NCBI GenBank assembly: GCA_020629005.1 | Contig: JAHDEE010000001.1 | Coordinates: 18,968-82,967 of the forward strand | Source of the DNA: Chitinophagales bacterium | GTDB lineage: Bacteria; Bacteroidota; Bacteroidia; Chitinophagales; UBA2359 | DNA length: 64,000 nt | Direction: 5' to 3' | In this document: positions 8,308-62,572 of the stretch, one piece after another | How positions within the stretch are numbered: position 1 is the stretch's first letter | How the letters are laid out: the number at the start of each line of letters is the position of its first letter | Made by a program: the position numbers and the translations under genes | Notes under the pieces: model-generated | Told to the model about the DNA's origin: nothing | Seen by the model: only the letters and a program-made list of their open reading frames with translations | Databases searched by the model: none

Positions 8308-8330
8308 TGACGACCATATTAGATAATATC

Positions 8331-9734: not shown

Positions 9735-9739
9735 ATAAA

Positions 9740-10526: not shown

Positions 10527-10605
10527 ATAGTTATTTAGATTGAGCTAGAATTCACTTCGGGTATAAGTAAATATTAGGAATCACTTCAAAAACCCTTATA
10601 TCACA

Positions 10606-10616
10606 TTGATTATCAA
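10606..10616. promoter_or_regulatory. palindromic site 2, TTGATTATCAA
   Basis: Second copy of the 11-bp palindrome, 90 bp from the first and followed by TTATTTAGA. It lies about 200 bp before the candidate promoter of the DUF6580 gene. Confidence 0.35.
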
Positions 10617-10842
10617 TTATTTAGAACCAGGATAGTCGGTTAGGCGCTTATTGAGAGTAAATTTGGGCTCTAAACAATCCAGCAATTGTCGGCAGGTCGT
10701 TTTGATGAACTATAGGCCATATATTTGGGCAGTTAGTTAATCGTTTGGCGCCTGGCAAGCAGACAAGTCGTGGTATTTTAAGGTCCTATTCTGTTTTTAT
10801 CTCCTTAATAATTTGCCTTATCTTCGCAGAAACAGACTGTAT

Positions 10843-11394: not shown

Positions 11395-11416
11395 TGCTTA
11401 GTGGCCACCGCCAGGA

Positions 11417-12055
11417 TCAAAGGTGCATGATATGAGTTCCTGGTTCGTAATCCTTCGATACGATCTGCAATATCTTTTGAAAGTCTTCCGGATTGTGCAC
11501 AAAATCGATGTTCGTGGTGTTGAGCACCAGTACTCTTAGGTGAGGGTTTTGCTTGAAGTACTCGAAATAAATTTTCTCCACCGAGGCCAGGTATTCTGTT
11601 CGCACGCTTTGTTCAAATCCTCGACCACGCTTTTGAATATTTTTTACTAGCCGATCTACCTCGGAATGTACATAGATCAGCAGTTGCGGCTCCGGTATTT
11701 CAGCGTACATAATACGGAATAGTCTAGCGAAGAGCTGATATTCATCTTCTTCCAGGTTCACCTTCGCGTACAGAAGAGATTTGTTGAAAATGTAGTCGGT
11801 GAAATAGCGCTTATCCGGATTGAATATATCTCTCGTTTGCAGAAGTTGCTTTAGCTGATGGAATCGATCCGCCATGAAATAGAGCTCAGTGGTAAAAGCA
11901 TAACGTCCTGGTTCTTTGTAGAACTTGGGCAGGAAGGGATTGTCTACAAACTCCTCAAGAATCAATTCTCCACCGTACTCTTTGGCTAACATATTCGCCA
12001 GCGTAGTTTTGCCAGCTCCTGTATTTCCTTCTACTGTAATTAGGTTATACTTCAT
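11417..12055 (-). CDS. deoxynucleoside kinase family protein, paralog 2
   Basis: P-loop kinase of the dNK family. The N-terminus has EGNTGAGKTTLANML, followed by EEFVDNPFLPKFYKEPGRYA, and the lid is QKRGRGFEQSVRTEYL, very like paralog 1. The segment equivalent to the (E/D)RS motif reads FTDYIFNKSLLYA, with Asp but no Arg next to it. From memory of the family, this DY(I/F)F(N/D)KSL form is the one found fused to FolK (HPPK) in many Flavobacteriia; here it stands alone at 212 aa. Its substrate and even its activity as a dNK are less certain than for paralog 1. A -7-like TATCTTCG lies at 12072-12079 on the minus strand. Confidence 0.85.
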   Translation of the reverse strand: MKYNLITVEGNTGAGKTTLANMLAKEYGGELILEEFVDNPFLPKFYKEPGRYAFTTELYFMADRFHQLKQLLQTRDIFNPDKRYFTDYIFNKSLLYAKVNLEEDEYQLFARLFRIMYAEIPEPQLLIYVHSEVDRLVKNIQKRGRGFEQSVRTEYLASVEKIYFEYFKQNPHLRVLVLNTTNIDFVHNPEDFQKILQIVSKDYEPGTHIMHL

Positions 12056-12112
12056 CTGCTATTATCTGCCTCGAAGATAAACAAATTTGCAGCATTCTGA
12101 GCGTGGGAGATA

Positions 12113-12291
12113 GGTGCAAAATAGCCCCGGGCGCAGCGGTATAAGGTGTATAGGCAGCGTGGCGACTGCCGGCCAATGCTGGCTCCGACCTTAGGAGGAG
12201 ACGGCAGTGGCCGAGCAGGAGCAGCTGAATATATGCCGCATACAAGCGTAGCACGGGGAGCCCGGTTGAGCGTAGGAAATCGTATCGCTCC
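12113..12291 (-). repeat. ~180-bp GC-rich structured repeat, copy 1
   Basis: Read on the minus strand it starts GGAGCGATACG and ends CCGGGGCTATTTTGCACC, like three other copies in the window. Shared internal blocks are CCCCGTGCTACGCTTGT, CTCCTGCTCG, GAGCCAGCA, GCAGTCGCCACG and TACCGCTGCGCCCG. Arms at 12224-12243 and 12139-12158 can pair over 20 nt with 14 Watson-Crick pairs. It lies 168 bp after the hydrolase stop (sense to it) and 57 bp upstream of paralog 2 of the kinase. The rest of the gap up to 12459 shows nothing recognisable. Confidence 0.85.
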
Positions 12292-12459
12292 TAATTAATT
12301 TCAGTTGTTCATTAGGTCACTAAGGATCACAAAATGGCTTCTATTTCTATCACCCTGCCTTGCCCGGCGGTCATGTGGCTTTGGCTATACTCCCTGCTTG
12401 TGCCTTGGTTGGCAAAAGATAAGCTCACCTAACCTGTCAATCAATTAAGTCCCGAGGCA

Positions 12460-15859: not shown

Positions 15860-18800
15860 ATGAAATCTTACCAAATTTACGTTCTGCTACTTACTGTGGG
15901 ACTAAGTGTTTGTTCCTTATTGCAAGCACAACAAGTAAATCCGTTTGATAGCAAGAAAAAGACCGAAATCGGCAGTCCCACTATAGATGTTCCTCTACTT
16001 GAGGTTAAGGGTTCTGATATAAGTAACAGTCCTTTTGTCAAGGAATATAATCCGCTACCATTCTTGGGAAGAGGAATGTCTGCTGCCCAGCGCCCCGGCA
16101 GCGAATTGAGTTTTGACGAAAACTCTTCCGTGCCGATTTTCGCTCGCGGACCGCACCTGGAATCCATGCCTGTATTGGAAAGTGATGAACAAGCCACAGC
16201 AATGGCATACGAGTACCTTGAAGAGATCAAAACTGATCTGGGTATCAAAGCACCTCTCGAAGAATTCGCGTTTAGGGAATCGATCCGGGATCAGAAAGGT
16301 AACCTGCACTTAAGGTTCCAGCAAATGTGTGGACAATATGAGGTACATGCCTCAGACATTGTTGTACACTTGTTGAGCGATGGGAAGAGAATGGTCAATG
16401 GCAGATTTCATCATAGCGCTACAGATCGTCAATTTGTAGCAGAATTGAGTGAAGCGGAAATTCAGGAAATTCTTCAGACAGATTTGGAGAGCCAGACAAA
16501 GGTTACTGAGCTTTGCGATCATGCAAAGGACATGATGCACTATCACGGCCCTGAAAGTAAATTGGTTGTCTACTATAAGAAGGGCTACGTTTCGGTGCCG
16601 ACACTGGCCTACTATGTGGTTGCCAGGCCAAATTTCCTGGAGAGATGGGAGTATATCGTTGATGCCGTAACTGGTGAAATTCTTCAGGAAATCAACAGTA
16701 CTTGCGAAGCTGGACCTACCACAGCTACGGACACCGACCTAAACGGGGACAGCAGAACACTGCAAGTGTACGAAGATGGCGGAACCTACATCATGCTTGA
16801 TGTAACCAAGGACATGTATTCGGGGCCTGGCGCTAGCCTTCCCGACTTGGGTGATGGCTTGATCCTCACCTATGATATGCAGAACAATTCTCCAAATTCC
16901 GGAGCAAACATACAGCCTGTAACCAGCAATAACAACAACTGGGATGCTAAGGAAGTATCTGCACACTGGAATGCCAGCAGGGCCTTCGACTACTTCAAGA
17001 ATACTTTCGGAAGAAACTCCATAGATGGTGATGGCGGAGATGTTTACTCCTTCATTAATGTTGCTGATCAGAATGGAAGTTCTATGGATAATGCCTTTTG
17101 GAACGGGGTGGGAATTTACTACGGTAACGGAGCACAGGCTTTTACTCCACTTGCAGGAGGCCTGGATGTTGCCGGCCATGAAATGTCGCATGGTGTAGTG
17201 GAGCACACAGCAAATCTTGAATATCAATATGAATCAGGAGCGCTCAACGAGTCCTTCGCCGATATTTTTGGTGCGATGATTGACCGTGACGATTGGAAGA
17301 TCGGAGAAGACATAGTCAACTCTAGTGTTTTCCCGTCGGGAGCAATGCGTGATATGCAAAACCCTCACAATGGTGGAACCAGCTTCAACAACTTTTACTA
17401 TCAACCTGAAAAGGTTTCGGAAAAATATACCGGATCACAGGATAATGGTGGTGTTCATTTAAACAGCGGTATCCCGAATCATGCCTTTTATCTATTTGCT
17501 ACCAATGTTGGCAAAGACAAAGCAGAGGACACCTTTTATAAAGCCTTGCAACAATATCTGACCAGATCTTCGCAATTCATTGACCTTCGTCTGGCAGTCT
17601 TACAATCTTGTGAAGACCTCTATGGTGCTGGTTCTTCAGAACTGAATGCCGCGATTAATGCATTTGATCAGGTGGAGATCTTTGGACCGAATACTGGAAA
17701 CGGCGGTGGATCTGGGGACGTTAGTGATCTGGAAGAAAATCCGGGTCAGGAATACATAGTATTCACAGATACAAACGGTAATGATCCAGTCACCATGTAT
17801 GTGACCAATGCTGAGGCTTCTGAATTCATACCAATTACACAAACCCCACATAGTCGTAGAATCAGTATGTCCGATGATGGGACGCTTGGGGTATTCGTTG
17901 ATGATGAGGGCCACATACGCTTGGTAAATATGAATCTGGATAATCCTCAAGAAACGGTGATCAGCACAGACGCAGAATGGGATAATGTAGCAATTTCAAA
18001 AGATGGGCGTTTAATAGCAGCAGTACCAAACTATGTTGATCCCAACATTTATGTGTATGATATTTCTGGAGAAACGGTTGTCGCTGCTTCATTTGAACTT
18101 AGTAACCCAACATCTGCTGAAGGAATCAGTACAGGGGAAGTAAAGTATGCAGATGCTATTGAATTTGATCACACTGGAGAATACGTAATGTATGATGCCT
18201 ACAACGAAATCAGTACTTCTCAATGGGATCAGAACCTCGATTTCTGGGATGTTGGCTGGCTTAAGGTCTGGGATAAAAACACTGGCAATTTTGCCGATGG
18301 CAATATCATAAAGCTATTCTCCGGATTGGAGGAAGGGGTAAGTCTGGGCAACGGCGTATTCTCCAAGAATTCACCATACATAATTGCCTTCGACTATTTC
18401 GATTTTGCAAATGATGTACAGGTCGTACTTGGAGCGAATATTGAAACAAGCGATATCCAGGAGATACACAATAATGATCGACTTGGCTACCCTAATTATT
18501 CAATTGATGACAGCCAGCTGCTATTCAACAGCAGTCAAGGCGGTGAGGATTATATCTTCAGAGTTGGACTACAGGACAACAAGATTCAAGCAACCGGAAG
18601 TCCGCAGACCTTTATCAATGCCGCTCAAAATGGTGTTTGGTTTGCCAACGGCACTAGAAATCTCGAAGTGGCCAATGAATCTTTGGCCAATGATTTTCCC
18701 GTTGAGGTCTTCCCCAATCCCTTTAGTAACAAGTTGACGCTAAACTTCTTACTAGAAAAAGCAGGTCCGGTCTCTATCAATGTAATGGACTTACAAGGAC

Positions 18801-18946
18801 GGATCGTCCTGGCTCAAGCCAGCGAGCAGTTAACGGGCCAGGTGCAATTCGATCTTCAGCTGGAAAATGTGCCGCATGGCATGTATATACTCGAATTACA
18901 AACAGCAGCTGGAAAGAATGCCAGGCTGATAACCAAAGTGCAGTAA
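15860..18946 (+). CDS. M4 (thermolysin-like) metallopeptidase with C-terminal propeller and T9SS type A domain
   Basis: Secreted zinc endopeptidase. A signal peptide (ends SLLQAQQ) precedes an FTP/PepSY propeptide (EYLEEIKTDLGIKAP ... RWEYIVDAVTGEILQ). The catalytic domain has HEMSH with His440, Glu441, His444, the third zinc ligand Glu464 (ALNESFADIFG) and the catalytic His533 (DNGGVHLNSGIPNHA). The 440-to-464 spacing equals that of thermolysin (142-166). From about residue 625 to 945 lies a WD40/TolB-like beta-propeller (GRLIAAVPNYVDPNIYVYD, GEYVMYDAYNEIS), unusual for M4 proteases. The last ~80 residues are a type A T9SS sorting domain (VFPNPFSNKLTLNF). A terminator-like hairpin follows. 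Confidence 0.95.
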   Translation: MKSYQIYVLLLTVGLSVCSLLQAQQVNPFDSKKKTEIGSPTIDVPLLEVKGSDISNSPFVKEYNPLPFLGRGMSAAQRPGSELSFDENSSVPIFARGPHLESMPVLESDEQATAMAYEYLEEIKTDLGIKAPLEEFAFRESIRDQKGNLHLRFQQMCGQYEVHASDIVVHLLSDGKRMVNGRFHHSATDRQFVAELSEAEIQEILQTDLESQTKVTELCDHAKDMMHYHGPESKLVVYYKKGYVSVPTLAYYVVARPNFLERWEYIVDAVTGEILQEINSTCEAGPTTATDTDLNGDSRTLQVYEDGGTYIMLDVTKDMYSGPGASLPDLGDGLILTYDMQNNSPNSGANIQPVTSNNNNWDAKEVSAHWNASRAFDYFKNTFGRNSIDGDGGDVYSFINVADQNGSSMDNAFWNGVGIYYGNGAQAFTPLAGGLDVAGHEMSHGVVEHTANLEYQYESGALNESFADIFGAMIDRDDWKIGEDIVNSSVFPSGAMRDMQNPHNGGTSFNNFYYQPEKVSEKYTGSQDNGGVHLNSGIPNHAFYLFATNVGKDKAEDTFYKALQQYLTRSSQFIDLRLAVLQSCEDLYGAGSSELNAAINAFDQVEIFGPNTGNGGGSGDVSDLEENPGQEYIVFTDTNGNDPVTMYVTNAEASEFIPITQTPHSRRISMSDDGTLGVFVDDEGHIRLVNMNLDNPQETVISTDAEWDNVAISKDGRLIAAVPNYVDPNIYVYDISGETVVAASFELSNPTSAEGISTGEVKYADAIEFDHTGEYVMYDAYNEISTSQWDQNLDFWDVGWLKVWDKNTGNFADGNIIKLFSGLEEGVSLGNGVFSKNSPYIIAFDYFDFANDVQVVLGANIETSDIQEIHNNDRLGYPNYSIDDSQLLFNSSQGGEDYIFRVGLQDNKIQATGSPQTFINAAQNGVWFANGTRNLEVANESLANDFPVEVFPNPFSNKLTLNFLLEKAGPVSINVMDLQGRIVLAQASEQLTGQVQFDLQLENVPHGMYILELQTAAGKNARLITKVQ

Positions 18947-21786: not shown

Positions 21787-24339
21787 TTATTGGACAAAGA
21801 GCTTAGCAGATGCTTCGAGGCCTTTGATTCCGATGATATTTGCCAGATATACACCGGCCCGCAAATCGCTAACATCAAGGTCAATCGAGAGCAAGCCAGC
21901 TTCATCAAAGCTGTATTTCAGATTTTTCAGCGTTCGTCCCTGTAAGTCAATGAGCTCCAATTCATAAGATCCCGGTTTCTCACATTGCCATTCAATTGAT
22001 ACAGAATTCCCAGCAGCAGGGTTCGGAAAAGACTTTAGCCTCCCTTCTCTTCCGCAATTAAGCCAGTAAGAGCCCGTGGTTTCCTGGTATGGGTTCGAAC
22101 TATCGGTAACCGTAACATGATAAAAACCTTTGCTAAGACCAGTTAAATTCTGGTAGACTGAGCCATTAGACCATGAATAGAAATACGGTGGCAATCCTCC
22201 GGTAACTTGAATCATGATTGCCCCATTAGTATCGTCACAGGTATTTGGCGGAGCAAGAGTAAAGTCTGAGATATCAACTGTAGAATCTTGAACTCCGGAA
22301 TCGTTTGCCAAGACTAGTTCGCATCCTTCAGAATCAGTCACAGTTATCCACCATTGACTATCATCGCGGTAGAGCACGTTTGCCGTAGTCTCAGCTTCAT
22401 CCATCCGCATATAGCCAACACGTTCATGCGAGAAATCGTACGGAGGTGTGCCACCAGCCACTTCAATCAAAGCGCTGTTATAGTGAAAAACAGTTGTTGT
22501 TAGAGCGCCTTGATTATTGCTTTGCATGGTATATGTCAGCGGTGCTGCTGCGCCCCTAACAACAAAGATTCTATTTACCTGGCAACCCTGTGCATTGGTA
22601 ATCTCAACGGAATAAACTCCGCTACTCAAGTCGTAACGGTCTTCCGAAGTATCACCGTCTGACCAACTAAACGAAAATGGACCAGAACCCACAACATCCA
22701 GAATTATTGATCCTTCTGATTGATCGCAAGAATCGTGATTCGTTTCTGCGCTCACAATTGTCCCCTCGCAAGTTGAAATGCAAAAGCTTGATCTCGGATC
22801 CAATCCACCATAACCATCAACCATAATATAATACATGGTTCCTTCCTCTGCGAAAAAGCTAACTTGAGGGACCAGCAGGTTTTCATCATCTGAGCAAGCG
22901 ACCTCAGCACCAGCACAAGAAGCATATACCGCGATCTGCACATCACTATAGCTCAGACTGCCATCGCAGTCTCCTGCACTTATCACCACTTGTTCACCGT
23001 TTCCTGCATAGGAAAACCAGACTGAATTGGTCACTTGATCTGTAAAACAACTGGGATTACCCTCAGTCTCTCCCGCCACATGCGTGGCACAAAAGTTATT
23101 AAATGGACCATTAGATCCTACATTCAACATAATAGCATCAGAGCAGAAATCATTGACTGCCTTAATATTATTAACTGAGCAGTCACAGGCATGAAACTTT
23201 GAAACCTTACTAAGGGTGCAAGCAGTATCACCTTCATCCACAACAGTGATTTCAGGCTCTTGATCTGCGGTGTAAGGCCCAAAAGAATAAGTGCCTTCGG
23301 CTACTGGCCCTATAAGGTCTCCAAGACCGTCCGTAATCGTGTAGCTACCAGATCCTTCAACAACTACCGCTAATGAGAAGGACTCAGAAGAATCGCAGCT
23401 GTTGGCTATCTCGATCACAAGATCACATGATAAGCAATCTGGGCAGCTACCGCCGCAATCTACCTCTGTTTCATCCTGATTTAGGATGCCGTCTGCGCAG
23501 GAAGGTCCTGAAGCGCTAAAGCTACAATCGTAGTGGATCGGCACCTTACAGAGATCACCTTCCGCGTCTTCAAGAACCAGCGTGTCATGAAAATCACTTG
23601 ACAAGGGGCCGATGTTATATGCCCCCCCAGTTCCAGCATCAATCGTTGCTCCTCCACTTTCAAGTGAAAGGTAGTAGTTGGCACTTCCATTTCCCTCAAA
23701 GCTAAAATCGACATAGTATTGTTCACCTTCACAAGAATAGGACACCGATAAATTCTTTGCATCACACTTCGGGCAGAACTGCGAATATGCCGTAGAACCT
23801 TCAAATTCCTGGCTAATGGAGATTTCATTTCCGTCGCAATACGAAGCAACAACCCCGCTTAGCTTGATATCGTACTCATAGCATTCATCCGGCTCAAGCA
23901 ATAAAGCGCCGAATAAATCGTCAATTGTCATTATGCATCCCAAAGTCATTGTCTCGCCGCCACAACCGACCCCTCCGGAATCACTACTCATGCGAATTTC
24001 GACAGTTCCTTCCTGTCCAGCGATCGACAACGGAGTGATCTCAAAGTCGGAAAAACAGCTGTTTTTACTGCGCAAAACCAATCCTGGGCTGCTAAAGGAT
24101 CCAATACTAGAAGTGACCAGGAACCTCAGTTCACACAAATCTTCGATACAAGGAATAGCCTCGTCCTCAAAGACAATATCGTAGCTCATATCTAACTTGG
24201 TATCCGTATAGACATACTGTGTTGAATATCCTATCAACCGACCACAAGCGAAAGAAGAGTGGTGAAAAAACAGCAGCACAGCAAGCAAAGTGGAAACTCG
24301 AATAAATGTAGGCATAGCACTAAATTTGAAACGCTTCAC
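21787..24339 (-). CDS. Cys-rich secreted protein with SprB-type repeats and T9SS type A domain
   Basis: 850-residue T9SS cargo. A signal segment (TLLAVLLFFHHSSFACG) starts the protein; an ATG at 24315 would remove eight polar residues and is an alternative start. Domains in order: a Cys-rich beta region, the DETEVDCGGSCPDC motif, a PPC-like domain (VTNSVWFSYAGNGEQVVISAG ... GTMYYIMVDGYGG), two SprB-like repeats (NHDSCDQSEGSIILDVVGSG, NTCDDTNGAIMIQVTGGLPP) and a type A sorting domain (LKSFPNPAAGNSVSIEW ... ASAKLFVQ). SprB-type repeats are linked to gliding adhesins. No enzyme motif is present. An adhesin-like surface role is inferred. Confidence 0.85.
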   Translation of the reverse strand: MKRFKFSAMPTFIRVSTLLAVLLFFHHSSFACGRLIGYSTQYVYTDTKLDMSYDIVFEDEAIPCIEDLCELRFLVTSSIGSFSSPGLVLRSKNSCFSDFEITPLSIAGQEGTVEIRMSSDSGGVGCGGETMTLGCIMTIDDLFGALLLEPDECYEYDIKLSGVVASYCDGNEISISQEFEGSTAYSQFCPKCDAKNLSVSYSCEGEQYYVDFSFEGNGSANYYLSLESGGATIDAGTGGAYNIGPLSSDFHDTLVLEDAEGDLCKVPIHYDCSFSASGPSCADGILNQDETEVDCGGSCPDCLSCDLVIEIANSCDSSESFSLAVVVEGSGSYTITDGLGDLIGPVAEGTYSFGPYTADQEPEITVVDEGDTACTLSKVSKFHACDCSVNNIKAVNDFCSDAIMLNVGSNGPFNNFCATHVAGETEGNPSCFTDQVTNSVWFSYAGNGEQVVISAGDCDGSLSYSDVQIAVYASCAGAEVACSDDENLLVPQVSFFAEEGTMYYIMVDGYGGLDPRSSFCISTCEGTIVSAETNHDSCDQSEGSIILDVVGSGPFSFSWSDGDTSEDRYDLSSGVYSVEITNAQGCQVNRIFVVRGAAAPLTYTMQSNNQGALTTTVFHYNSALIEVAGGTPPYDFSHERVGYMRMDEAETTANVLYRDDSQWWITVTDSEGCELVLANDSGVQDSTVDISDFTLAPPNTCDDTNGAIMIQVTGGLPPYFYSWSNGSVYQNLTGLSKGFYHVTVTDSSNPYQETTGSYWLNCGREGRLKSFPNPAAGNSVSIEWQCEKPGSYELELIDLQGRTLKNLKYSFDEAGLLSIDLDVSDLRAGVYLANIIGIKGLEASAKLFVQ

Positions 24340-36195: not shown

Positions 36196-37155
36196 TTACT
36201 CATTTCGAAGCGGATCGTCAACATCCGCATCATCATAATCTCTAGCTGCAGGAGCGCTATAACCCCAGTCGAAATCAATACCAAAGCTAAGCTCATGGCT
36301 TCCGCTGCTATAATCATTGAGCTCTGAGGTCGTCATATCATAGGAGTAAGCAAGGTGATACATTTCTTCGAAAGTCACACCGGCAAGAATTGAGATCGCA
36401 TCTGCGGTTCTGTAAGAGAGACCCAACCAATACTGATCCTGGTAGATACCTCTGGCGCCAAGGTCGAACTGTGGATCAACTCCGCCAACAAACTTTCCAA
36501 AAACCATGGGTTCAACAGAAAAGTCCTCATTGATGTCAAACATGTAGCCAGCTGACAAGAAAAGGTGCCTGCTATTTTCCACTGTTTCCGCATCGTCCAA
36601 TTTGAATTTTGCGCCGATCAGTTGGTTCAAAGAAGCTCCTACATAGTAGCTTTCTCCTTGCAGGTATGCACCAAAATCAGCATCAAAACCCATTTTAGAT
36701 GCTTTTCTAGAACCAACAATAGGATCGTCAAAATCTCGTGCCTCGAGATCCGAAAAGTTGATTCGCTGTTGCATGACCGCTGCACCGATTCCCAACGAAA
36801 GTACATTCTCTCTGAGATCGTCCAGAGGAAGTTGATAAGCATAGACCAACTTAAGCCCAGACCTTGCTGTCGGACCAGTTTGGTCATTGTAAAAGACCGC
36901 TCCCACCCCAACGTTGTTGAATTGAGGCAGACTAGTATGCGCAGTGATAAATTGAGTAAAAGGGGAATCACCATCATCGAAACCCACCCATTGCTTCCGC
37001 AAATTGAGTCTTGCCTCGATCATATCGCTACTACCAGCAATTGCTGGATTGTAAACAAAATCATTCATACTGTATTGCGTCAGCTGATGAATTTGTTGAC
37101 CATTGGCAAAGCTATATAAGCATAGCGTAACTGCCAGTAAAAGTATATTTTTCAT
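36196..37155 (-). CDS. T9SS outer-membrane protein, PorP/SprF family
   Basis: 319-residue outer-membrane barrel. The signal peptide ends FANGQQ and is followed by the family start QLTQYSMNDFVYNPAIAGSS, EARLNLRKQWVGFDDGDSPFT and GVGAVFYNDQTGPTARSGLK. PorP/SprF proteins act with the type IX secretion machinery and, from known Flavobacterium work, SprF is needed for surface localisation of the type B cargo SprB encoded next to it. Here the neighbour is the giant C25/adhesin gene, which has a type B-like sorting domain and is 66 bp upstream. A terminator-like hairpin lies in that 66-bp gap, and no TAnnTTTG box is seen there, so expression probably relies on readthrough. Confidence 0.93.
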   Translation of the reverse strand: MKNILLLAVTLCLYSFANGQQIHQLTQYSMNDFVYNPAIAGSSDMIEARLNLRKQWVGFDDGDSPFTQFITAHTSLPQFNNVGVGAVFYNDQTGPTARSGLKLVYAYQLPLDDLRENVLSLGIGAAVMQQRINFSDLEARDFDDPIVGSRKASKMGFDADFGAYLQGESYYVGASLNQLIGAKFKLDDAETVENSRHLFLSAGYMFDINEDFSVEPMVFGKFVGGVDPQFDLGARGIYQDQYWLGLSYRTADAISILAGVTFEEMYHLAYSYDMTTSELNDYSSGSHELSFGIDFDWGYSAPAARDYDDADVDDPLRNE

Positions 37156-37180: not shown

Positions 37181-37212
37181 AAAAACAGGGTCCGAGGATC
37201 AAGCTCGGACCC
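37181..37212 (-). terminator. terminator/attenuator between giant C25 gene and PorP/SprF gene
   Basis: Perfect 9-bp stem GGGTCCGAG/CTCGGACCC with a 7-nt loop; on the minus strand it is followed by TG and five T residues. It sits 9 bp after the giant gene's stop and 26 bp before the PorP/SprF start, so it could trim transcription between cargo and partner. Confidence 0.75.
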
Positions 37213-37221
37213 TTGTTGTTC

Positions 37222-40200
37222 TTATTTAAGAATTGTAACGTTACCAGTAAGTGGCTCACTTCCGTCATTTTTGTCTATGACATAGTAGTAGGTAGCATCT
37301 GGTAAATCATCACCATCCTGATTGGTTCCTTCCCAATTATTAGGGTAATCACTGGCTTCGTAAACCAGCTGTCCCCAACGATTGAATATCTTGACCTGAT
37401 TGCCACTGTAGGCATCTATAAAGTCAATCACCCAAGCGTCGTTCTTCCCGTCATTATTGGGAGTAATCACATTAGGAACTTTCTCTTCAGGACAAACAGT
37501 GACATCAGTAGTAACAGTAATTGTTCCACCCTTAGAACAACCATCCTCATCGGTAATCAACACCTCATAGGTTGTATCTTCTGTAACTGTTGCGATTGGC
37601 GAGTCAGAAAATTCATCATCCAATCCATCACCCGTCCAGCTGTATTCAATTCCACCTGAGGCAAACAACTCGATTGGTTCGCCAGGGCAGATTGTAGAAT
37701 CAGGGCTCAACGTGATTGAAGGCAGCGCCTTGAAATCCAATTCAATTTCGGCTGTAGAAGAACAACCGTCCTTAACGCCCACGAGGGTGTAAATGTAGGT
37801 TCCAGAGCCAGGAGCGTCGATGACCGATTCTCCCGCTGCATCAGTCAATCCCCCACCATTCCAGGTATAAGAATCAGCGCCCTCCGCAGTCAGTACAACT
37901 TCGTCACCTTCGCAGTAGCTATTTTGGTCAGCACCCACAGAAAGCTGAGGCGCATCAAAAACATTAAGCAGTCCAACAACGGCATCCTCATCTGAAGTTG
38001 TGCCACAACCAAAGGTTAATAGCGTGACATCCCAGTCTCCAGCTTCCTCAAATATGAGTTCAGGTGCTTCTTGATCTGAGGTTAGTGTGGTGCCTGTTAC
38101 ATTGTTGTAGAAGGTCCAGCTGTATCCAGCAGCGTTAACACTTTCTTGTGTAAAGGAAGCTGTTTCACCCAGACAAACGCCAAATTGTTCTCCTGCGATA
38201 ATGGAAACTGGCGAAGAAGCTACATCCGCTTCAATTTCAATTAGCGCAGTACTTGTACAGCCTTCTACACTTTCGACAAAGAGACTGTAAGTCCCTGTTT
38301 GGGTTAAGGACAGTGTTGCTTCTGTGCCGATAACTCCTCCATCTGTGGCCCATTCGTAACTTACAAATCCATCTTCCGCAACCAATTCAATTTCCTCACC
38401 TTGACATAGTACAGTCGGTCCAGAAATTGAAGGCTCCGCTAAGTCCTGACTTCCTACCTCAACTTCAATTGAGGACTCACATCCTGCTTCATTCATAGCA
38501 GTGAATGTGTACATACCCGGATTAGATACTTCGAGCTCACCTTGTTCTGAGAGGAGATCACCTTCGCTATCATACCAACCAACACTTGTCAATCCATCTC
38601 CCACACCTTGCAGGGTCGTGACCTGTCCGTTACAAATGGTTGAAGCCCCTTCAAATCCGAGGTTTGGAACGTCGTTTATATTGACATCAAAAACAAGCGA
38701 TCCAGAACAACCTACAGCATCAACACCTGTCAACACATAAGTACCAGTTTGTTCAATAATCACTTCTGATTCAGTACTAAATGGATCTTCTGTATTTTCT
38801 GAATTTGCCCAGGAGAAGGTGACAAATTCATCACCAACTGCTGTAAGGGAAACTTCGTTTTCTCCACAAACATTGGTGATTCCATCCAGCAAAGGAGAGC
38901 TGGCCAATACTCCGTTAGCAACTGTAAATTCATTTGAAGCACTGCAACCCAGATCACTTTCGCAAACCAACTCGTAGACGCCCGTTTCAGTGATTGTGAC
39001 TTCTGATTCTGACCCGATCAACTCACCATCAAGAAACCAGTTACAAGTCTCTCCCTCAGGAGCAGACAGCGTTGTTGGACTATCTGCACAAACTGACAAT
39101 TCGCCCGTCACTTCCGGGCTTGTAACTACAGCCTGCAGAACAGAGAAAGTGGTTTGTGAGCCACATCCGGAATCGTCTTCACAAACCAGCTGGTATTCTC
39201 CTTCTTCCGATACCGTAATTTCAGAGCCTGTGCCTACAAGCTCACCCGCAAAGTACCAGGTGCAATTATATTCTGCCGGACCGTTCAAAGTGGTGGACCC
39301 GTCTTCACAGAATGCAAGATTTCCTTCAATGCTTGGCTCTGGTAATTGTCCAACAATAATACTGAACTCTCTTTCTCCCTGACAGCCCAAAGCATCAGAG
39401 CAAATCAAGGTATAATCACCTTGATCCGAGAGGTCGATACTGGTATCACCAGATATCAATTCACCATCCAGATACCAAGCGCAGCTCAATTCTTCAGGTG
39501 CTGTCAAAGTTGTGGAACTGCCTTCGCAAATAGAAAGAGCTCCGTCAATGGTAGGCTCTTCAAGCTCTCCTAGACCTACTTCAATAGAGTTGCTTCCCAT
39601 ACAGTCGGCATCTGTCATACCATTTAGGTTGTAAACACCTGCTTCTGTAATACTGATGTTCTGCTCTGTTCCAATTTCCTCGCCCTGAGCATTAGTCCAG
39701 GTCCATTGAGAATAAGGTCCGCTGGCACTCAGTTCCAGAGTGGATCCGGCACATAGTGTATTTCCTCCATCAATACCTGGTGATGGAGGTGTATCAAAGC
39801 TGACAGTGAATGAGAGAGATTCAGTACAACCAAACTGGTCAGTACCAAACACCTCGTAATCTCCGGCCTCATCTATCAACACAGATGGGCCAACACCAAC
39901 TGACAGATCATCACTATTCTTCCAATCGATCACTTGGTAATCTCCTATCACAGAAAGAATCGTTGACTCCTGGCTACAGAGTTGGGTATCTCCGTTCAAT
40001 TCAGGAGTGATTCCACCATTTTCTATCGTGACAGGTACGGAGGTTTCACAACCAATTGCCGAGATACCTACGAGCGTATACTCACCTGGGATACTTGTTG
40101 TAAGGCTGCTCTCGTTTGTCAGGATTATACCTTCTGAATCCAACCATCGGAAACTTTCAAAGCTATCCCCTTCTCCAGTCAGTGTCGTTTCACCGCCAGC

Positions 40201-43200
40201 ACATATCACTGGCGAACCTGCCAGAACAGGGTCAAACAGCTGTTGAACAGAAACAGTGAACACTTGCGATGTTCCTTGACATCCTGCTGCATCAGATCCA
40301 ACAACCGAGAATGTTCCACTCGTTGTTGCTTCATAACTGCTTGTGCCCGTTGCTACTTGCTCATTTCCTTGGTACCAGATGTAGTTTTCTTCAACGAAAT
40401 TGCCGCTTGCCTGAAGGATGGTACTGCCAGATTGACAAATCAGATCACTTCCTGTGATCTCCGGATTACTAGAGGCAACTCCAGTACCGACTACGAAAGT
40501 TTCAGTGCCTTCACAATCTGACAGAAGTGAAGTAGCAGAAACAGAATAGGTCCCTGGAGAATCAATTATAATCGATTGCCCAGAACCAATTTCAGATCCG
40601 CCCCCATCAAACCAGGTATAATTATCATAGTCTCCTGAGGCACTCAGAGTGGTTGAAGAATTACCACAAACAGACAAGACACCATCCACAATGGGAGGCT
40701 CGCCACCACCATAGATTTCGAAAGGCGTACAAAGTGTACAGCCAAGCGAGTTTTGTCCGCACAGTAGGTATTCCCCAGGATTGCTGGGAATCCAGGTAGG
40801 CCCAACTTGCTGAGCAACGCCAGCCGAGTTGGACCAGGTATATTCATTGTAATCTCCAACAGCAGTCAGGGCCGTATTACTTCCTAGACAGACAGAAAGT
40901 GAACCATCAACTTGTGGTGCAGCTATGTCCAGAAGCTCAACATCATAGTTTGCTGTGCTACTACATCCTCCTGTACTAATTACTGTCAGCTCGTAAGTGC
41001 CAGCTAATTCTTCTAGCGTTATTCCTTCCAAAAGTTCAGGATTGATCTCTATGTAGCTTTGAGACAGCGGAACCTGAATGATCTGACCAGCGAGCGTCCA
41101 TGAGTACGAAGCATAGCCTTGAGGACCGAAAAGTGTTAAAGTTTGACCGTTACAGATTTGATTTCCTCCAGTGCTTGTTGAGAAGCTCGGTGGATCTATA
41201 GCTGCTTCAAGTACTTCGACACTTACCTCTGTGGTACAGCCATTGGCAGCTGTCACACTAGCTGAGTAAGTTCCAACTTCGTTTACAATAATTGTTGCAT
41301 TTGGATCGTCATTGTCCCACAGAATTGAGTTTCCACCATCCGTTGATACAGACAGTTGAATGGATTCACCAGGACAAATCTCAAAATCATTTTGGTTCGA
41401 TACAATTGATGCGTTCACTTCGTAAGGAACAACAGAATAGGAATTAGTCGAAGAACAACCATCCAAGTCAACCGTGTTAATCGTATAGACTCCCGCAGTA
41501 TTTACAACATATTCCGGCGTAGACGGACCACCATCCCAAGAATAAGAACTAAAATCTCCCAATACTGTAAGAGTGATTTCGTCTCCATCGCATAATGTGC
41601 CTGATCCATTGGAAGGCACGATCGTCGGTGTAGTCCCGCCCGAAACGACAACAACCACGTTTTTTTGTTGTGTTGGACAATCATCACCAGAAGGAACAGC
41701 ATAACTCAAAGTGTAACCCCCAGGAGTAAGTCCTGTTGGATCAAAAGTACTTCCGGATACTCCGGCACCAGAAAAGTTTCCATTGCTTGGGAAGCCGGAA
41801 AGTGCAACTGGTCCTGAGTTAGCGCAGAATACCTGATTGTCTTCAATTCCACTGATGCTTAGATTAAGATCAGGACAATCGGAAGCAGTACAAATGATCG
41901 TGCTCGAAGTAGCCGAACCACAGTTTCCTAGTCCACTGGCTTGTACATAAAAGGACACCTCTTGTCCCGGAGTCAAACCATTTAGCGTGAACTGACCATC
42001 GTTGTCGAAAACCTGGCTTCCATTGTAATCCACTAAATAGTTCCCTACATTACTAGCTGTGTTCCAATCTATCGTTACAGAGTTAGAAGTCGAAGAGACA
42101 CAGTTAACAACCGGAGGTGTTATCTCATCCAGTACGGTAACCTGATATTCAGAAACAGAAGAACCACAATCCGGGTGTGTAACCGTAAGAGTTGCATTCT
42201 TTGTACCTGCAGTAGCATAGTTTACTGAATGAGGTCCAGCACCTGTAGCGATTGGCGTATCAGCTCCTACCCCAAAATTCCAGGAGTAACTGTAGCCAGC
42301 GGCTTGCGTTCCTGTATAACTAAAGACAACTTCCGAGTCGTCTAGACAAACAGTGTTTTGCTGCGCAGTAATTCCTCCAGTGCTAGGAGCTGGAATAACA
42401 GTCCACGTGCTTGAAGTCTCGCATGACGTACCGCTTGTGGTTCCCACATATTGGATGTTATAAGTACCAGGGCCAGTTGCTGGAACAAAAGTGTTAGTGA
42501 TTGTGCCGTTAACATAGAAAGTTCCTGAGTCACCAGTACCAGTCAAAGTAACCGGGCCTTCGGAAGAACAGTATGTTGTTTCAGTGTTTGATATTTGGAA
42601 ATTACCGCAGTTGCCAATTACAGGAATCACTATACTCTTAGAAGCCTCATTATTATCTGGACAGTCTTCCGTAATTGTTCCACCATTGTTAAGATTTACT
42701 GTGAATGTAGTATTTCCCGAAGGCAGTGTTGAGAGATCCACAGTATAGGTATACAGCGATGAACCCGTTGGAGGATTAGCCTCAGCAACATTCACAACTA
42801 CCTGGCTAAATCCGGCAGAAGGATTGTTTGCGGTGATCGAAATCGGAAGAGGAGAAAAGTCCACATCACCAGCATTGTTGACCGTTACGTAAATAGTCAA
42901 CTCTGTTGTCGAATCGGTGATGGTCTGTGGAGAGAAGCTGATATTGTTGCTTCCGTTTTCGAAATGGTATTCCGGGTTTTCATAGGCAATTAGGCTGATA
43001 GCCGGATCACCTGACCAAGTAAATTCCTCGATGGTTTTTCTCATCCCCTGATAAAAGATTGTTGTCGTTTCAGCAGCAGAAGCTACGTAGATTTCGTCGA
43101 TTGCGGACATTATGCAAGAACCAATAGGCTCACCGTACAAGTCTCCGGAAAATTTAGAGTGTACTGCCTCTACATAGTTGGACAAATATTCCGGGAAGCC

Positions 43201-45435
43201 GAAGTTCACTCCAGCAAGGAATCCTACCGAACCCCGATTAGGTGTAAGCGTCCAAAGCTCAGCCATAGATGGTGCATTCACGTTTACGTGAATATTACCC
43301 ACAAAACAGGAACCCGAGAAGATCATCGGATACTTACCTACTTCAAAGCTAGACGGATTGAAGTTCCAACCAGAACTCCAGGACCAGGTCGTGTAATCTT
43401 CCGCATCCGCGTGACCAAGGAAATTAATGATACCAATTCCTTCTTGTAAGTGATCCTTAAACTCCTGGAAGTCGGCTGATGAAGGAGAAGATCCTGGTGA
43501 GCCTCCAGAATATACATCTGAAATGTAGCTATAAGTCTCCACAACTTCACCTCGGTAGACATCATTTTCAATGTGTGTACCCCATTCTGCCAACATGCCC
43601 AGAAAACTCTCAGCCTGATCTGAAATGCCGTCGTTATTGTAATCAGGATTATAAGCACCTGAAAGATGTATCGCTCTTCTAGGACAATCGCGTTTTGCAA
43701 GATCATCACAATAGGTCACATTGGTCCAGGATTCATGCTCTACCACCTTGTCAAAATAATTCTTGACATCAGCTGGCGTATTTGCACTAATTCTACCAGT
43801 CGCAATTTGTGGCCTATAACTCACATTATTGCTTGCGCTAAGTAGGGGATCAGCTGCTGGGTTACCAAAAGAGGGCACCAGGTTTTGAGCAAATATCGGC
43901 CCACTAAAGAGACAAGATTTGTAATTCACTGACTTGCCCACCAGAAAGAGGAACTCCGGCTCAATGCTCCAGTTGTCATTCATATAATTGCAAAAGTTCC
44001 TAATCGCCAAGGGGTGTTTTCGAATCCCCCAGCTAAACATATCGTAGAGCATCTCAACGTCTACGGCTCTAGCAGTATATGAACCACCAGCTGGCGACTG
44101 ACGGTAACTCTCATAGGCATCGACCGGCTGCACTCCACCAAATGACTGGTTGAGCGACGGGTGATAAATCATCACATAGTTTCCTTGATTGTTGATCTGA
44201 GAAAAATTTGTGAATTGACGTGCATCCATCTCCTCCACCGTCTTAAAATAGCTGTTAGAGAAACTGTCAGTAGATCCGAAGAACAGTTCCATCTTTGGAC
44301 CATTTGCTGGATTTGCTTTTATCAAAATCTTGTACACTCCTCCAATAGAGGTAGGAGTATATCTCCTTTTGTTTGTCATGTCATAAAGCACGGGAGCGGA
44401 ACCTCCGTTAAAGCTCGAAATTTCTACATACTTATCACTGTCGTTATCCAAAGAGAACTGGAAACCCTTTTGATTGGCAAAATCAAATTCCCGCCCGTAG
44501 GTTAAAAAGGTGTAGGCAATCGAAAAGTCGTCATCACCAGCTGGATAGATGTCTCCAACAGCAAAATACACCACCTCCGTACGTTCATTTGGCAAAGTAT
44601 TCATCGAGCTAGGAGCTAGCTGCGCAGTAAAGTTCTTTACTGCATATCCTTCATAGGTATCGTCGATATAGACATCTCCTCCCACAGACACCTGTGTATG
44701 GTGATCAGGGTAATACTGAAACTCGTTAGACCTTCCCAATACCTTGCACTCCATTGTTGGCACTGGAGCACCGGGTCCCGTGTACAGTCCCGGCGTGCTT
44801 AGGTTTATGGTTTGAGAATTACTTGTGGAAAGCGAACTCTTGATTACTCCGGATACCCAGCCTTCAGCTTTATCAAATGAGCTATAGGTATTGTTCACGC
44901 CAGCAAATCGAAAAGGAACACCTCCATAGTACGTGTTTCTGTTCCATTTGATGGCAGTGTGAAGGAAGTGGCTTTCCGGGGCCGGAGGATTAGAAATGTC
45001 GTTCGCCTGATCCTGATACCTTGATTGGTTACCATTGTTGTCCCACGTTAAGAAATAGAAAATGGTGTCTGTAAACAATGTTCGCTGATCAGAGAGCTGC
45101 CAGGTACTCACCGGAAACAATGGAGTATCCATTTCTCCGTCATTTTGCTGACCCACAAATTCCACATAATCACCAGGCCCAAAGCTGGAGGTGTTGCTGA
45201 TGTGAACTGGAATCTGTTCTCCTTTCGCGTAAATTTTGAAATTTGAAGCATTGCTTAAAGATACACCCGCAGCACTTAACGTGCTGTAAGGAATTCGGTA
45301 TATCCCGTCGGAATAAACCGGAAACTTGTAGTAGGTCTTATCATAGCCAGAATCAGAAATCCACTCGTTATAATATTGTCCGAATAGATTTGCACTGACA
45401 AAAAGAACCCACAGAATGCATAATAGTCTTTTCAT
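37222..45435 (-). CDS. porU2: giant PorU2-like C25 peptidase with Ig-like repeat array and T9SS type B domain
   Basis: 2737 residues. The signal peptide ends NLFGQ and is followed by the PorU2-type start YYNEWISDSG, GIYRIPYSTLSAAGV. The gingipain (C25) domain has a His in LGHAD (His675) and Cys in SGSCFVGN (Cys710), 35 apart, close to the 33 of gingipain R, so the dyad looks intact. After a CARDB-like segment, a PKD and an FN3-like domain come 18 Ig-like units of about 75 aa (37480-41622), each opening like SVCxGSSTTLSAxG and containing W and a late GC. The end (37225-37479) is a gliding-motility/T9SS type B domain (VPNVITPNNDGKNDAW). It is probably surface-exposed. The peptidase and adhesin combination is unusual; PorU2 identity is by N-terminal resemblance. 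Confidence 0.9.
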   Translation of the reverse strand: MKRLLCILWVLFVSANLFGQYYNEWISDSGYDKTYYKFPVYSDGIYRIPYSTLSAAGVSLSNASNFKIYAKGEQIPVHISNTSSFGPGDYVEFVGQQNDGEMDTPLFPVSTWQLSDQRTLFTDTIFYFLTWDNNGNQSRYQDQANDISNPPAPESHFLHTAIKWNRNTYYGGVPFRFAGVNNTYSSFDKAEGWVSGVIKSSLSTSNSQTINLSTPGLYTGPGAPVPTMECKVLGRSNEFQYYPDHHTQVSVGGDVYIDDTYEGYAVKNFTAQLAPSSMNTLPNERTEVVYFAVGDIYPAGDDDFSIAYTFLTYGREFDFANQKGFQFSLDNDSDKYVEISSFNGGSAPVLYDMTNKRRYTPTSIGGVYKILIKANPANGPKMELFFGSTDSFSNSYFKTVEEMDARQFTNFSQINNQGNYVMIYHPSLNQSFGGVQPVDAYESYRQSPAGGSYTARAVDVEMLYDMFSWGIRKHPLAIRNFCNYMNDNWSIEPEFLFLVGKSVNYKSCLFSGPIFAQNLVPSFGNPAADPLLSASNNVSYRPQIATGRISANTPADVKNYFDKVVEHESWTNVTYCDDLAKRDCPRRAIHLSGAYNPDYNNDGISDQAESFLGMLAEWGTHIENDVYRGEVVETYSYISDVYSGGSPGSSPSSADFQEFKDHLQEGIGIINFLGHADAEDYTTWSWSSGWNFNPSSFEVGKYPMIFSGSCFVGNIHVNVNAPSMAELWTLTPNRGSVGFLAGVNFGFPEYLSNYVEAVHSKFSGDLYGEPIGSCIMSAIDEIYVASAAETTTIFYQGMRKTIEEFTWSGDPAISLIAYENPEYHFENGSNNISFSPQTITDSTTELTIYVTVNNAGDVDFSPLPISITANNPSAGFSQVVVNVAEANPPTGSSLYTYTVDLSTLPSGNTTFTVNLNNGGTITEDCPDNNEASKSIVIPVIGNCGNFQISNTETTYCSSEGPVTLTGTGDSGTFYVNGTITNTFVPATGPGTYNIQYVGTTSGTSCETSSTWTVIPAPSTGGITAQQNTVCLDDSEVVFSYTGTQAAGYSYSWNFGVGADTPIATGAGPHSVNYATAGTKNATLTVTHPDCGSSVSEYQVTVLDEITPPVVNCVSSTSNSVTIDWNTASNVGNYLVDYNGSQVFDNDGQFTLNGLTPGQEVSFYVQASGLGNCGSATSSTIICTASDCPDLNLSISGIEDNQVFCANSGPVALSGFPSNGNFSGAGVSGSTFDPTGLTPGGYTLSYAVPSGDDCPTQQKNVVVVVSGGTTPTIVPSNGSGTLCDGDEITLTVLGDFSSYSWDGGPSTPEYVVNTAGVYTINTVDLDGCSSTNSYSVVPYEVNASIVSNQNDFEICPGESIQLSVSTDGGNSILWDNDDPNATIIVNEVGTYSASVTAANGCTTEVSVEVLEAAIDPPSFSTSTGGNQICNGQTLTLFGPQGYASYSWTLAGQIIQVPLSQSYIEINPELLEGITLEELAGTYELTVISTGGCSSTANYDVELLDIAAPQVDGSLSVCLGSNTALTAVGDYNEYTWSNSAGVAQQVGPTWIPSNPGEYLLCGQNSLGCTLCTPFEIYGGGEPPIVDGVLSVCGNSSTTLSASGDYDNYTWFDGGGSEIGSGQSIIIDSPGTYSVSATSLLSDCEGTETFVVGTGVASSNPEITGSDLICQSGSTILQASGNFVEENYIWYQGNEQVATGTSSYEATTSGTFSVVGSDAAGCQGTSQVFTVSVQQLFDPVLAGSPVICAGGETTLTGEGDSFESFRWLDSEGIILTNESSLTTSIPGEYTLVGISAIGCETSVPVTIENGGITPELNGDTQLCSQESTILSVIGDYQVIDWKNSDDLSVGVGPSVLIDEAGDYEVFGTDQFGCTESLSFTVSFDTPPSPGIDGGNTLCAGSTLELSASGPYSQWTWTNAQGEEIGTEQNISITEAGVYNLNGMTDADCMGSNSIEVGLGELEEPTIDGALSICEGSSTTLTAPEELSCAWYLDGELISGDTSIDLSDQGDYTLICSDALGCQGEREFSIIVGQLPEPSIEGNLAFCEDGSTTLNGPAEYNCTWYFAGELVGTGSEITVSEEGEYQLVCEDDSGCGSQTTFSVLQAVVTSPEVTGELSVCADSPTTLSAPEGETCNWFLDGELIGSESEVTITETGVYELVCESDLGCSASNEFTVANGVLASSPLLDGITNVCGENEVSLTAVGDEFVTFSWANSENTEDPFSTESEVIIEQTGTYVLTGVDAVGCSGSLVFDVNINDVPNLGFEGASTICNGQVTTLQGVGDGLTSVGWYDSEGDLLSEQGELEVSNPGMYTFTAMNEAGCESSIEVEVGSQDLAEPSISGPTVLCQGEEIELVAEDGFVSYEWATDGGVIGTEATLSLTQTGTYSLFVESVEGCTSTALIEIEADVASSPVSIIAGEQFGVCLGETASFTQESVNAAGYSWTFYNNVTGTTLTSDQEAPELIFEEAGDWDVTLLTFGCGTTSDEDAVVGLLNVFDAPQLSVGADQNSYCEGDEVVLTAEGADSYTWNGGGLTDAAGESVIDAPGSGTYIYTLVGVKDGCSSTAEIELDFKALPSITLSPDSTICPGEPIELFASGGIEYSWTGDGLDDEFSDSPIATVTEDTTYEVLITDEDGCSKGGTITVTTDVTVCPEEKVPNVITPNNDGKNDAWVIDFIDAYSGNQVKIFNRWGQLVYEASDYPNNWEGTNQDGDDLPDATYYYVIDKNDGSEPLTGNVTILK

Positions 45436-60094: not shown

Positions 60095-62572
60095 TTATCT
60101 TAACAGCGTAACATTGCCACTGCGATTTTCCTGAATCAGTTTTCCGTTGTCGTTTACCACAGCCTGAAGACTCCACACATAGGTTCCGATCGGCAATGCC
60201 TCACCATTAAAGTCGCCATCCCAGCCGTCAGTGCTACTGGTACTTCTAAACAATGTTTTACCCCAACGATCATGTACGGTCAGCTCGAATTCCTCAACTG
60301 AAGAGGTTATCACCCTGAACACATCATTCACCCCGTCGCCATTTGGACTAAAGGCATTTACTACTTGTATTCCCACCTGGCAGAGGGTTGAAACTTCCAT
60401 TTGTACTGTGGTGCTGCACTCAAATTCGTCAGTCACTTCAAGACTGTAAGATCCCGGCTGTGTCAATTGCAAGATGCGCTCTGTGCTTCCATCGCTCCAA
60501 AGGTATTGGTTAAAGTAGCCAGGGTCAATGTATTTGACCTGACCTTCACAAATGGTTTCAATCGTAGGAATCTCTGGTGACGGAGCCTCCCTGAAACCAA
60601 GGTAGATTTCATCCTCTGAGTTGCAACCATTGGCATCCAGCACCTGAAGATTATAGTAACCAGCTTCTACCAAATTCAGGCTTTGGGTACTTTCCTCATT
60701 GCTCCAACGGTATTCCACATAGCCATCCGGGGCCATGAAAGTTGCCGACTCTGCATTGCAAAAGTACTGGTCAGGTCCTAAGTCCAGGATTTCGCTTTCA
60801 ACGAAATTGAGCATTATTGTGAGCTGTTTTTCACAGTTTTCCTCATTCCATACTACCACATTTATTGCTCCTTCAACGTCGGTGGAAAAAGTGGTTGCAT
60901 TTGTTCCATCAGGCCAGAGTTGTGCGGAATAAAGTCCAGCGAGATCCAGCTGCAAAGTTTGCCCGGAACACAAGGTTGTATCAGAAGGGAAGTTGGGTTC
61001 CTGAAAAGAAGGGTGATCGAGAACGGTTAGCTGGTCTTCTTTAGGTCCGCAGGATGAAGATACCTGGAGTGTATATGTACCAGGATTCTTGAGCCAGATT
61101 CCGGGTGTTGTTTCTCCATTGTTCCATAGGTAGTCCTGAAACAGATCAGGAACTTCTACAAACACACTATCTCCTTCACAAAAGGAAAAGGGTTCATCCT
61201 GTAAATCCAGGATAGGTTCAGGATCTTCAGTGTAAAAACTATCAACCACTCCCAAACCTTGTGGGCTGGTACCGTTTTCTGCACCGTTATTCTCATTGAA
61301 GCAATTCGACGAAACGTTTACTTCCACCCCTGCCAGCCCCTGGGAAGCCAAGTTCAGTATTCCTTCCGGACTGCTGCTGGCATTTATCTTCAGGACTCCT
61401 GCACCTCCTCCGCCTCCTGGGCCAAAACAATCAAAGACAGCATACTGATCACCATCAACATTTCCGCCTTTGCCTCCATTTACTTTGAGCGTTAGCAGAC
61501 CAGCAAAAGAAGCAACTTCAAAAACTACCGTACCTCCGGCTCCACCGCCTCCGCCACCAGATGCCAAGGCTACCTGGTTTTGGTCTAGTCCAGCTGCTGA
61601 AATACTGTAGCTGTTTCCCTCCAAAACTCCCGCTTTAATAAAAATTAGTCCACCCCCATTGGTACCTGCAGTGGCCTGCGGATTTCCGTCGCTATCGAAA
61701 GCTTCAGCATGTCCTGCTCCTCCTCCGCCACCCATGAAGGCCTTCTTTTCAAAATCATCGAGTTGCCAGCCACCCATTCCTCCGACTTCCAGAATTGCAC
61801 ATTCTGCCGATTGAAAACCGCCGCTGCCTCCCGCACTAAAATTACTGCCTCCTCCCCCACCGGAATTAGACTTGTTGCCACCGCCGCCTGCATTCGCCTG
61901 AGCACCCATTCCATATTGCATCGAGGGGTCGGGGACAAATAGCCCCTCTCCCTTTTCAGAAGCAAGAGCCTGGGATTCGTCATACCACAGATCGAAAGCT
62001 TCGCAAGGGAAACCGGTATCAAACATGCGGGTCCCACCTCTGAAACCTGCACCATCTGCCAGTAGATTGCCATTGAGCACAAGTTCCTCAATTACATGAA
62101 TTGCCAGTATGCCACCTACGGTACCGTCCCATGGCTGCGCCAGCAGATCGCCTACTACAGTCGCCGATTCATAGACCGGTACTTTGACTATCTGAACTGC
62201 AAACGAAGTGTCATAGGAATTCGAGAGAATTGTTGTTGGTCGGAAAGTGTTGGTTGCGGTTTCTTCGACCGTCAAAAACTCATAGTTGCCTGCACTGCCA
62301 TAATCTTCGATCATCCCGTAATCATAACTGAGGTCAAGATTACAGCTAACTCCATTCATCTGGATTAGCAATAGTTTTTCCCCTGGAGCTAAACTATGTT
62401 CCTCAGCTGTACTGATCTCTGGCGGACACTGGCTCAGATCAATGTTCACTACTTCAAAGTATTCATTGACAATTCCAGCTATGTCTTCCTGAGCAGACAA
62501 AGTTACGGGCAGCAAAAGAACGACAAGGATATTGCAAAACCCGATCAGTTTATGCAAGGCTTTGATTTGCAT
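60095..62572 (-). CDS. glycine-rich secreted protein with Ig-like repeats and T9SS type B domain
   Basis: 825 residues. The signal peptide (LVVLLLPVTLSAQ) is followed by a beta region, a glycine-rich stretch around residues 215 to 395 (with GGGGNKSNSGGGGGSN and ASGGGGGGAGGT), as seen in adhesins with loose Gly-rich loops, and then Ig-like repeats with the pattern xxxCxGxxLxLxxxxxYxxxLWxxG (for example FCEGDSVFVEVPDLF, LCSGQTLQLDL). The last ~90 residues are a type B T9SS/gliding-motility domain (VNAFSPNGDGVNDVFRV ... RWGKTLFRST ... GNVTLLR). No PorP/SprF gene is adjacent, unlike the giant gene at 37 kb. An adhesive surface role is inferred. Confidence 0.87.
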   Translation of the reverse strand: MQIKALHKLIGFCNILVVLLLPVTLSAQEDIAGIVNEYFEVVNIDLSQCPPEISTAEEHSLAPGEKLLLIQMNGVSCNLDLSYDYGMIEDYGSAGNYEFLTVEETATNTFRPTTILSNSYDTSFAVQIVKVPVYESATVVGDLLAQPWDGTVGGILAIHVIEELVLNGNLLADGAGFRGGTRMFDTGFPCEAFDLWYDESQALASEKGEGLFVPDPSMQYGMGAQANAGGGGNKSNSGGGGGSNFSAGGSGGFQSAECAILEVGGMGGWQLDDFEKKAFMGGGGGAGHAEAFDSDGNPQATAGTNGGGLIFIKAGVLEGNSYSISAAGLDQNQVALASGGGGGGAGGTVVFEVASFAGLLTLKVNGGKGGNVDGDQYAVFDCFGPGGGGGAGVLKINASSSPEGILNLASQGLAGVEVNVSSNCFNENNGAENGTSPQGLGVVDSFYTEDPEPILDLQDEPFSFCEGDSVFVEVPDLFQDYLWNNGETTPGIWLKNPGTYTLQVSSSCGPKEDQLTVLDHPSFQEPNFPSDTTLCSGQTLQLDLAGLYSAQLWPDGTNATTFSTDVEGAINVVVWNEENCEKQLTIMLNFVESEILDLGPDQYFCNAESATFMAPDGYVEYRWSNEESTQSLNLVEAGYYNLQVLDANGCNSEDEIYLGFREAPSPEIPTIETICEGQVKYIDPGYFNQYLWSDGSTERILQLTQPGSYSLEVTDEFECSTTVQMEVSTLCQVGIQVVNAFSPNGDGVNDVFRVITSSVEEFELTVHDRWGKTLFRSTSSTDGWDGDFNGEALPIGTYVWSLQAVVNDNGKLIQENRSGNVTLLR

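Follow-up and report, generated by a model that had tools for sequence, protein, structure and literature searches.

What does a gingipain-type peptidase do when it is built into a giant protein that carries the stalk and the sorting signal of a surface adhesin? The question is raised by a gene on the minus strand (37222-45435) of the window, the 64-kb stretch of Chitinophagales DNA analysed here. Its product fuses a C25 (gingipain-type) peptidase of the PorU2 family to an array of immunoglobulin (Ig)-like repeats and to a type B C-terminal domain (CTD), a sorting signal of the type IX secretion system (T9SS). A gene for a PorP/SprF-family outer-membrane protein starts 66 nt downstream. We consider it probable that the product is a surface-tethered, stalked cysteine protease, exported by the T9SS, held distally by its cognate PorP/SprF and cutting external protein. 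Support from the sequences comes from the domains, the conservation of the catalytic dyad, the linkage and co-inheritance with PorP/SprF, the conservation across one bacterial family and the variation in Ig number; secretion, anchoring and orientation are inferred from what is known of type B cargo.

Architecture of the 2737-residue protein

An original prediction, made from the DNA letters alone, had described the gene as the largest in the window and its product as a C25 peptidase of the PorU2 type fused to 18 Ig-like repeats and a type B sorting domain. It was right on the fusion and silent on the minus strand, the adjoining PorP/SprF gene, the PorU2 paralogs and the spread in the bacterial family. 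The gene is a single open reading frame (ORF) with an ATG start and no internal stops, encoding 2737 amino acids (aa), and is indeed the largest in the window, the runner-up being of only 1028 aa. A congeneric species has an equivalent architecture of 2801 aa, the first 930 aa being 79% identical, so that the ORF is neither a chance product nor an assembly artefact. The nearest named relatives of the source are metagenome-assembled genomes under the labels Chitinophagales, Sphingobacteriales or Bacteroidetes. Both the PorU2 assignment and the type B sorting domain are borne out by family models well over their cut-offs (Table 1), whereas the model of the T9SS sortase PorU (NF033707) gave 67.8 bits and did not reach its cut-off of 420.

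To place the head among known peptidases a profile was required: the N-terminal sequence on its own had no match in the PDB, and the profile of 42 relatives (A2) matched gingipain R, PorU and Lys-gingipain with E down to 3e-13. The columns of the family's conserved His and Cys fall, in this alignment, on gingipain R residues 211 and 244, its established catalytic pair, and the positions proposed at the outset for the dyad, His675 and Cys710, are thus confirmed. The comparison of a predicted structure with gingipain and PorU, suggested together with the dyad, supports the fold. An AlphaFold2 model of residues 20-930 (pLDDT 87.5, pTM 0.88) searched against the PDB with Foldseek had as top match PorU (6za2, a latent dimer; E=6e-26), followed by RgpB and Kgp; entry 4ief scored E=6e-18. 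In the model the His lies right after strand 650-655 and strand 685-691 ends in the Cys (model numbering), the topology that one would expect if the dyad works.

Between the head and the Ig array, Pfam places PKD-like and fn3-like stretches. The array itself stands as predicted, and its count becomes 19 when the repeats are counted with a hidden Markov model (HMM) built from the window protein itself. Twelve of the 19 units, residues 1507-2396, are near-uniform with a spacing of ~74 aa, and an alignment of non-overlapping repeat triplets served to compare the repeats; a conserved Cys pair is present in every repeat of this core. AlphaFold2 rendered three repeats as an all-beta, Ig-like structure (pLDDT 90.7) whose best PDB matches are fragments of GhpA (E=6e-13), and the repeats together with the type B tail match GhpA in sequence (E=7e-114). 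Since Ig_7 repeats are widespread in T9SS cargo, this likeness tells the make-up of the stalk and implies no hook function. Type B PorU2 proteins mostly carry 5-8 Ig units; the longest have 11, 16, 19 and 20, with 19 in the window species and 20 in its congener.

The PorP/SprF partner and conservation among relatives

In Flavobacterium johnsoniae, type B cargo depends on a cognate PorP/SprF protein, often encoded directly downstream (PMC12618676); this partner is required and cleavage of the CTD is probably absent (PMC12618676, PMC10202324). Type B substrates are described there as adhesins, known or predicted, and the mobile ones are encoded in operons without a PorE-like gene (PMC12618676). 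At the window locus, the next two ORFs downstream had no Pfam match and no PorE was recognised among them, which is evidence by absence; the arrangement weakly suggests the mobile class. The PorP/SprF protein itself had no match in the PDB.

PorU2 proteins were collected from 31 genomes (the source and its relatives) and from a phylum sample of 148 genomes. PorU2 is expanded in the bacterial family of the source, whose genome carries eight modules over the NF052324 cut-off, whilst in the order's other families a single module over the cut-off is typical, in a frame of ~1650-1760 aa. Across the phylum sample, 15 genomes exceeded the cut-off, and the frames listed outside the family were of at most ~2005 aa. 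Of 14 PorU2 proteins from outside the family that were followed through to the C-terminus, none had a type B tail comparable to that of the family, and no PorP was recognised by the linked-PorP model within the stretches examined. Within the family, the type B tail is found in 15 aligned PorU2 proteins and in one more found later (L112/L212), and type B PorU2 is present in all nine sampled genomes of at least 90% completeness. PorP/SprF lies directly downstream in 12 of these 15, as well as in L112/L212, compared to none of 60 other PorU2 proteins. As for the three unpaired ones, two are second copies in genomes with a paired copy and one sits at a contig end. The PorP/SprF proteins linked to PorU2 form one clade in the phylogeny (support 99/98).

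The dyad is intact in all type B proteins (15/15) and all canonical ones (24/24), compared to 11 of the 33 type A paralogs; the difference between type B and type A is significant (Fisher p=7e-6, on counts uncorrected for phylogenetic non-independence). The original prediction had asked whether homologs keep both dyad and repeats: the type B relatives keep the dyad, the Ig array and the type B tail, whilst 22 of the 33 type A paralogs have lost the dyad. Several subclades pair a dyad-bearing type B protein with type A paralogs that lack the dyad (L062/L063, L050/L064, window/L013). In the comparison of the two congeners, synonymous divergence has reached saturation along most of the gene, and nonsynonymous divergence (dN) alone was therefore compared, dN/dS being set aside. 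The Ig core has the highest dN (0.33); the lowest values are those of the catalytic region (0.13-0.14), the CTD (0.13) and PorP (0.15).

His and/or Cys are lost at L012, L013 and L015 of the source genome and at L051, L052, L060, L063, L064 and L077 of relatives; these dyad-less type A proteins are apparent pseudoproteases that occur alongside intact paralogs. The dyad is intact at L010 (two tandem copies), L011 and L014 of the source genome.

The hypothesis that the type B catalytic domains all share one origin was rejected (p-AU 3e-69; p=4e-4 without L050; quick tree, simple model). As the heads are not one clade and the linked PorP proteins are, it is likelier that heads were swapped or duplicated than that the anchor pair arose more than once. 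Within the limits of a quick tree and a simple model, the likeliest history would thus be that the anchor pair arose once and that heads were then exchanged or duplicated between paralogs. At L050 (genome G013, 2976-12698), a 3241-aa type B PorU2 has a PorP of the common clade and a catalytic head that falls among the type A paralogs of a different subclade, pointing to a likely swap of heads.

Proposed role and alternatives

By analogy with type B cargo, a Sec signal peptide would take the protein out of the cytoplasm, the type B CTD would direct its passage through the T9SS across the outer membrane, and the PorP/SprF protein encoded directly downstream would collect it. The uncleaved CTD would keep it attached to PorP/SprF. 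With the C-terminus thus at the membrane, the PorU2/C25 head would be outermost, at the far end of ~19 Ig domains with a reach of several tens of nanometres, from where it would most likely cleave external proteins, be they of neighbours, of the matrix or of surface cargo. In a bolder version the PorP/SprF shuttle carries the C25 enzyme on the gliding machinery, sweeping prey, matrix or neighbours, with a stalk length tuned by gain and loss of Ig units; we hold this version to be rather unlikely. In keeping with the favoured reading, T9SS and gliding components occur in the source genome: besides PorU and the PorP/SprF genes, it has GldB over its cut-off and a GldJ-like protein below its own.

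Several points weigh against a stalked protease. The activity of the head is a prediction from domains, dyad columns and fold, and the dyad geometry is drawn from the topology of a predicted model in which the pLDDT drops below 50 in two segments close to the active site (model residues 623-635 and 662-672). The family consensus is non-acidic where gingipain R has the acidic S1 residue; the alignment is locally uncertain there, and a specificity for Arg is on this account unlikely. In addition, the type B copies L098 and L104 have no adjoining PorP.

Alternatively, the head could serve the T9SS itself, as a sortase or a processing peptidase that trims or transpeptidates surface cargo, its stalk serving to reach neighbours on the same cell. 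NCBI names the family in which it exceeds the cut-off 'putative sortase PorU2', PorU is its top structural match, and canonical PorU2 occurs about once per genome across the order, as would a component of the system. However, a canonical PorU, complete and scoring 1326 bits, is already present in the genome alongside a canonical PorU2 (L009), and the long stalks are limited to one family in the samples. Moreover, the FlgD-like tail of PorU2 is replaced by the type B tail with its PorP partner, so that one would not expect to find the protein at the PorV/PorQ/PorZ complex, and we judge this alternative unlikely. That the head is an adhesin, which binds a ligand without cutting and keeps the fold for binding, is distinctly improbable: its stalk and CTD are homologous to those of the grappling hook protein GhpA of Aureispira, and the related type A paralogs are often dead enzymes, but a head kept for binding alone should lose the dyad, as many of those paralogs did, whereas the dyad is invariant in all type B members and the catalytic domain is their most conserved part. 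Gingipains and PorU being autoprocessing or latent enzymes, the head might also be a maturation device that cuts its own stalk or its neighbours and is then released, the fused form being transient. No cleavage site is marked in the sequence, however, and a long stalk of varying domain number suggests a persistent spacer, which makes self-release highly improbable. Combined, these considerations favour a tethered protease acting at a distance from the cell.

Features of the locus and comparison with known systems

The coordinates of the features of the locus are collected in Table 1.

Table 1. Features of the PorU2-PorP/SprF locus, in window positions
Feature	Coordinates	Strand	Basis
Putative Sec signal peptide, ~residues 1-20 (MKRLLCILWVLFVSANLFGQ)	45376..45435	-	By eye from the translation; N-termini of orthologs alike
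PorU2 N-terminal module, residues 5-929	42649..45423	-	NCBIfam NF052324, 573 bits (cut-off 450)
C25 (gingipain-type) peptidase domain, residues 420-815	42991..44178	-	Pfam PF01364, E=6.7e-44, 151 vs 23 bits
Predicted catalytic His675 codon	43411..43413	-	Same column as gingipain R His211; invariant in alignments A1 and A2
Predicted catalytic Cys710 codon	43306..43308	-	Same column as gingipain R Cys244; invariant in alignments A1 and A2
Stalk, residues 952-2634: 19 Ig-like repeats with PKD-like and fn3-like stretches	37534..42582	-	Internal HMM; Pfam Ig_7, PKD, fn3
Uniform core of 12 Ig_7 repeats, residues 1507-2396	38248..40917	-	Internal HMM; AlphaFold2 of three repeats
Type B T9SS C-terminal sorting domain (CHU_C), residues 2652-2735	37231..37482	-	TIGR04131, 61.6 bits (cut-off 35); PF13585, 94.1 bits, E=6e-27
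G+C-rich hairpin, 10 bp, between the PorU2 and PorP/SprF genes	37187..37213	-	RNA folding
PorP/SprF-family T9SS outer-membrane protein, probable cognate shuttle/anchor	36196..37155	-	TIGR03519, 258 bits; PF11751, 242 bits

A hairpin is found between the type B PorU2 and PorP/SprF genes in all 12 pairs (window, L049, L050, L053, L062, L065, L067, L076, L093, L095, L097, L103), in the same place and with unrelated sequences. These gaps fold more stably than their shuffles (z from -2.1 to -7.2) and differ from 133 control gaps of the same loci (median z -0.5; p=2e-5). An ordinary terminator suits the window copy, where a U-run follows the hairpin, and was set aside for the set as most other copies lack a U-run; for this reason we guess that the hairpin may mark RNA processing or stability between the giant gene and the shuttle gene rather than termination. 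Of two other gaps between type B and PorP genes in the source genome, one has a hairpin. At another locus of this genome (L188, C180:28860-31344), two PorP/SprF genes lie in tandem behind a type B giant and are separated from each other by a strong hairpin.

The source genome has 54 matches to the type B CTD and 11 PorP/SprF genes over the cut-off. Elsewhere in the window, an 825-aa type B protein in which Pfam finds no other domain (60095-62572, minus strand) has no PorP/SprF match in the 14 kb examined around it, an 'orphan' type B substrate. A 1028-aa M4 thermolysin-type metallopeptidase with a type A T9SS tail is encoded at 15860-18946 (plus strand), and an 850-aa protein at 21787-24339 (minus strand) has an SprB-type repeat and a tail of type A instead of type B.

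Compared to the PorU2 family (NF052324), the window protein shares the whole N-terminal module with the catalytic His and Cys retained. Canonical PorU2 of the order, in contrast, has ~1650-1760 aa, an FlgD-like tail and no adjoining PorP, where the window protein has a type B tail behind its 19 Ig repeats; with the tail replaced in this way, it is a PorU2-module protein and not a canonical PorU2. With PorU and the gingipains RgpB and Kgp it has in common the C25 fold and the catalytic columns, but it differs from PorU by its score (68 vs 420 bits) and the lack of a type A tail, in a genome with a PorU of its own. SprB and other type B proteins served by SprF in Flavobacterium johnsoniae resemble it in the signal peptide, the long repeats, the type B CTD and the PorP/SprF gene directly downstream, and perhaps in the lack of a PorE-like gene, none having been recognised alongside; unlike them, it has an intact peptidase head. 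The closest solved structures to its Ig repeats are those of GhpA from Aureispira sp. CCB-QB1 (PDB 9flp-9fly, 9g8b), a protein of 5898 aa to which the C25 head had no match.

No function of PorU2 is described in the open-access literature searched, where the name itself is absent. The parts are known, a PorU2 peptidase and an SprB-like type B surface protein, and this is no new system. What appears to be new is that one bacterial family has combined them in a fixed manner, placing a conserved enzyme within a class of cargo described as adhesins. If the favoured reading is true, the type B route would display enzymes, besides adhesins, at a distance from the cell; under the bolder version, the class would include an enzyme that is tethered and moving. 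One catalytic module on three tails, type A (mostly decayed), canonical (intact) and type B (always intact), provides a natural comparison set by which the role of PorU2 becomes testable.
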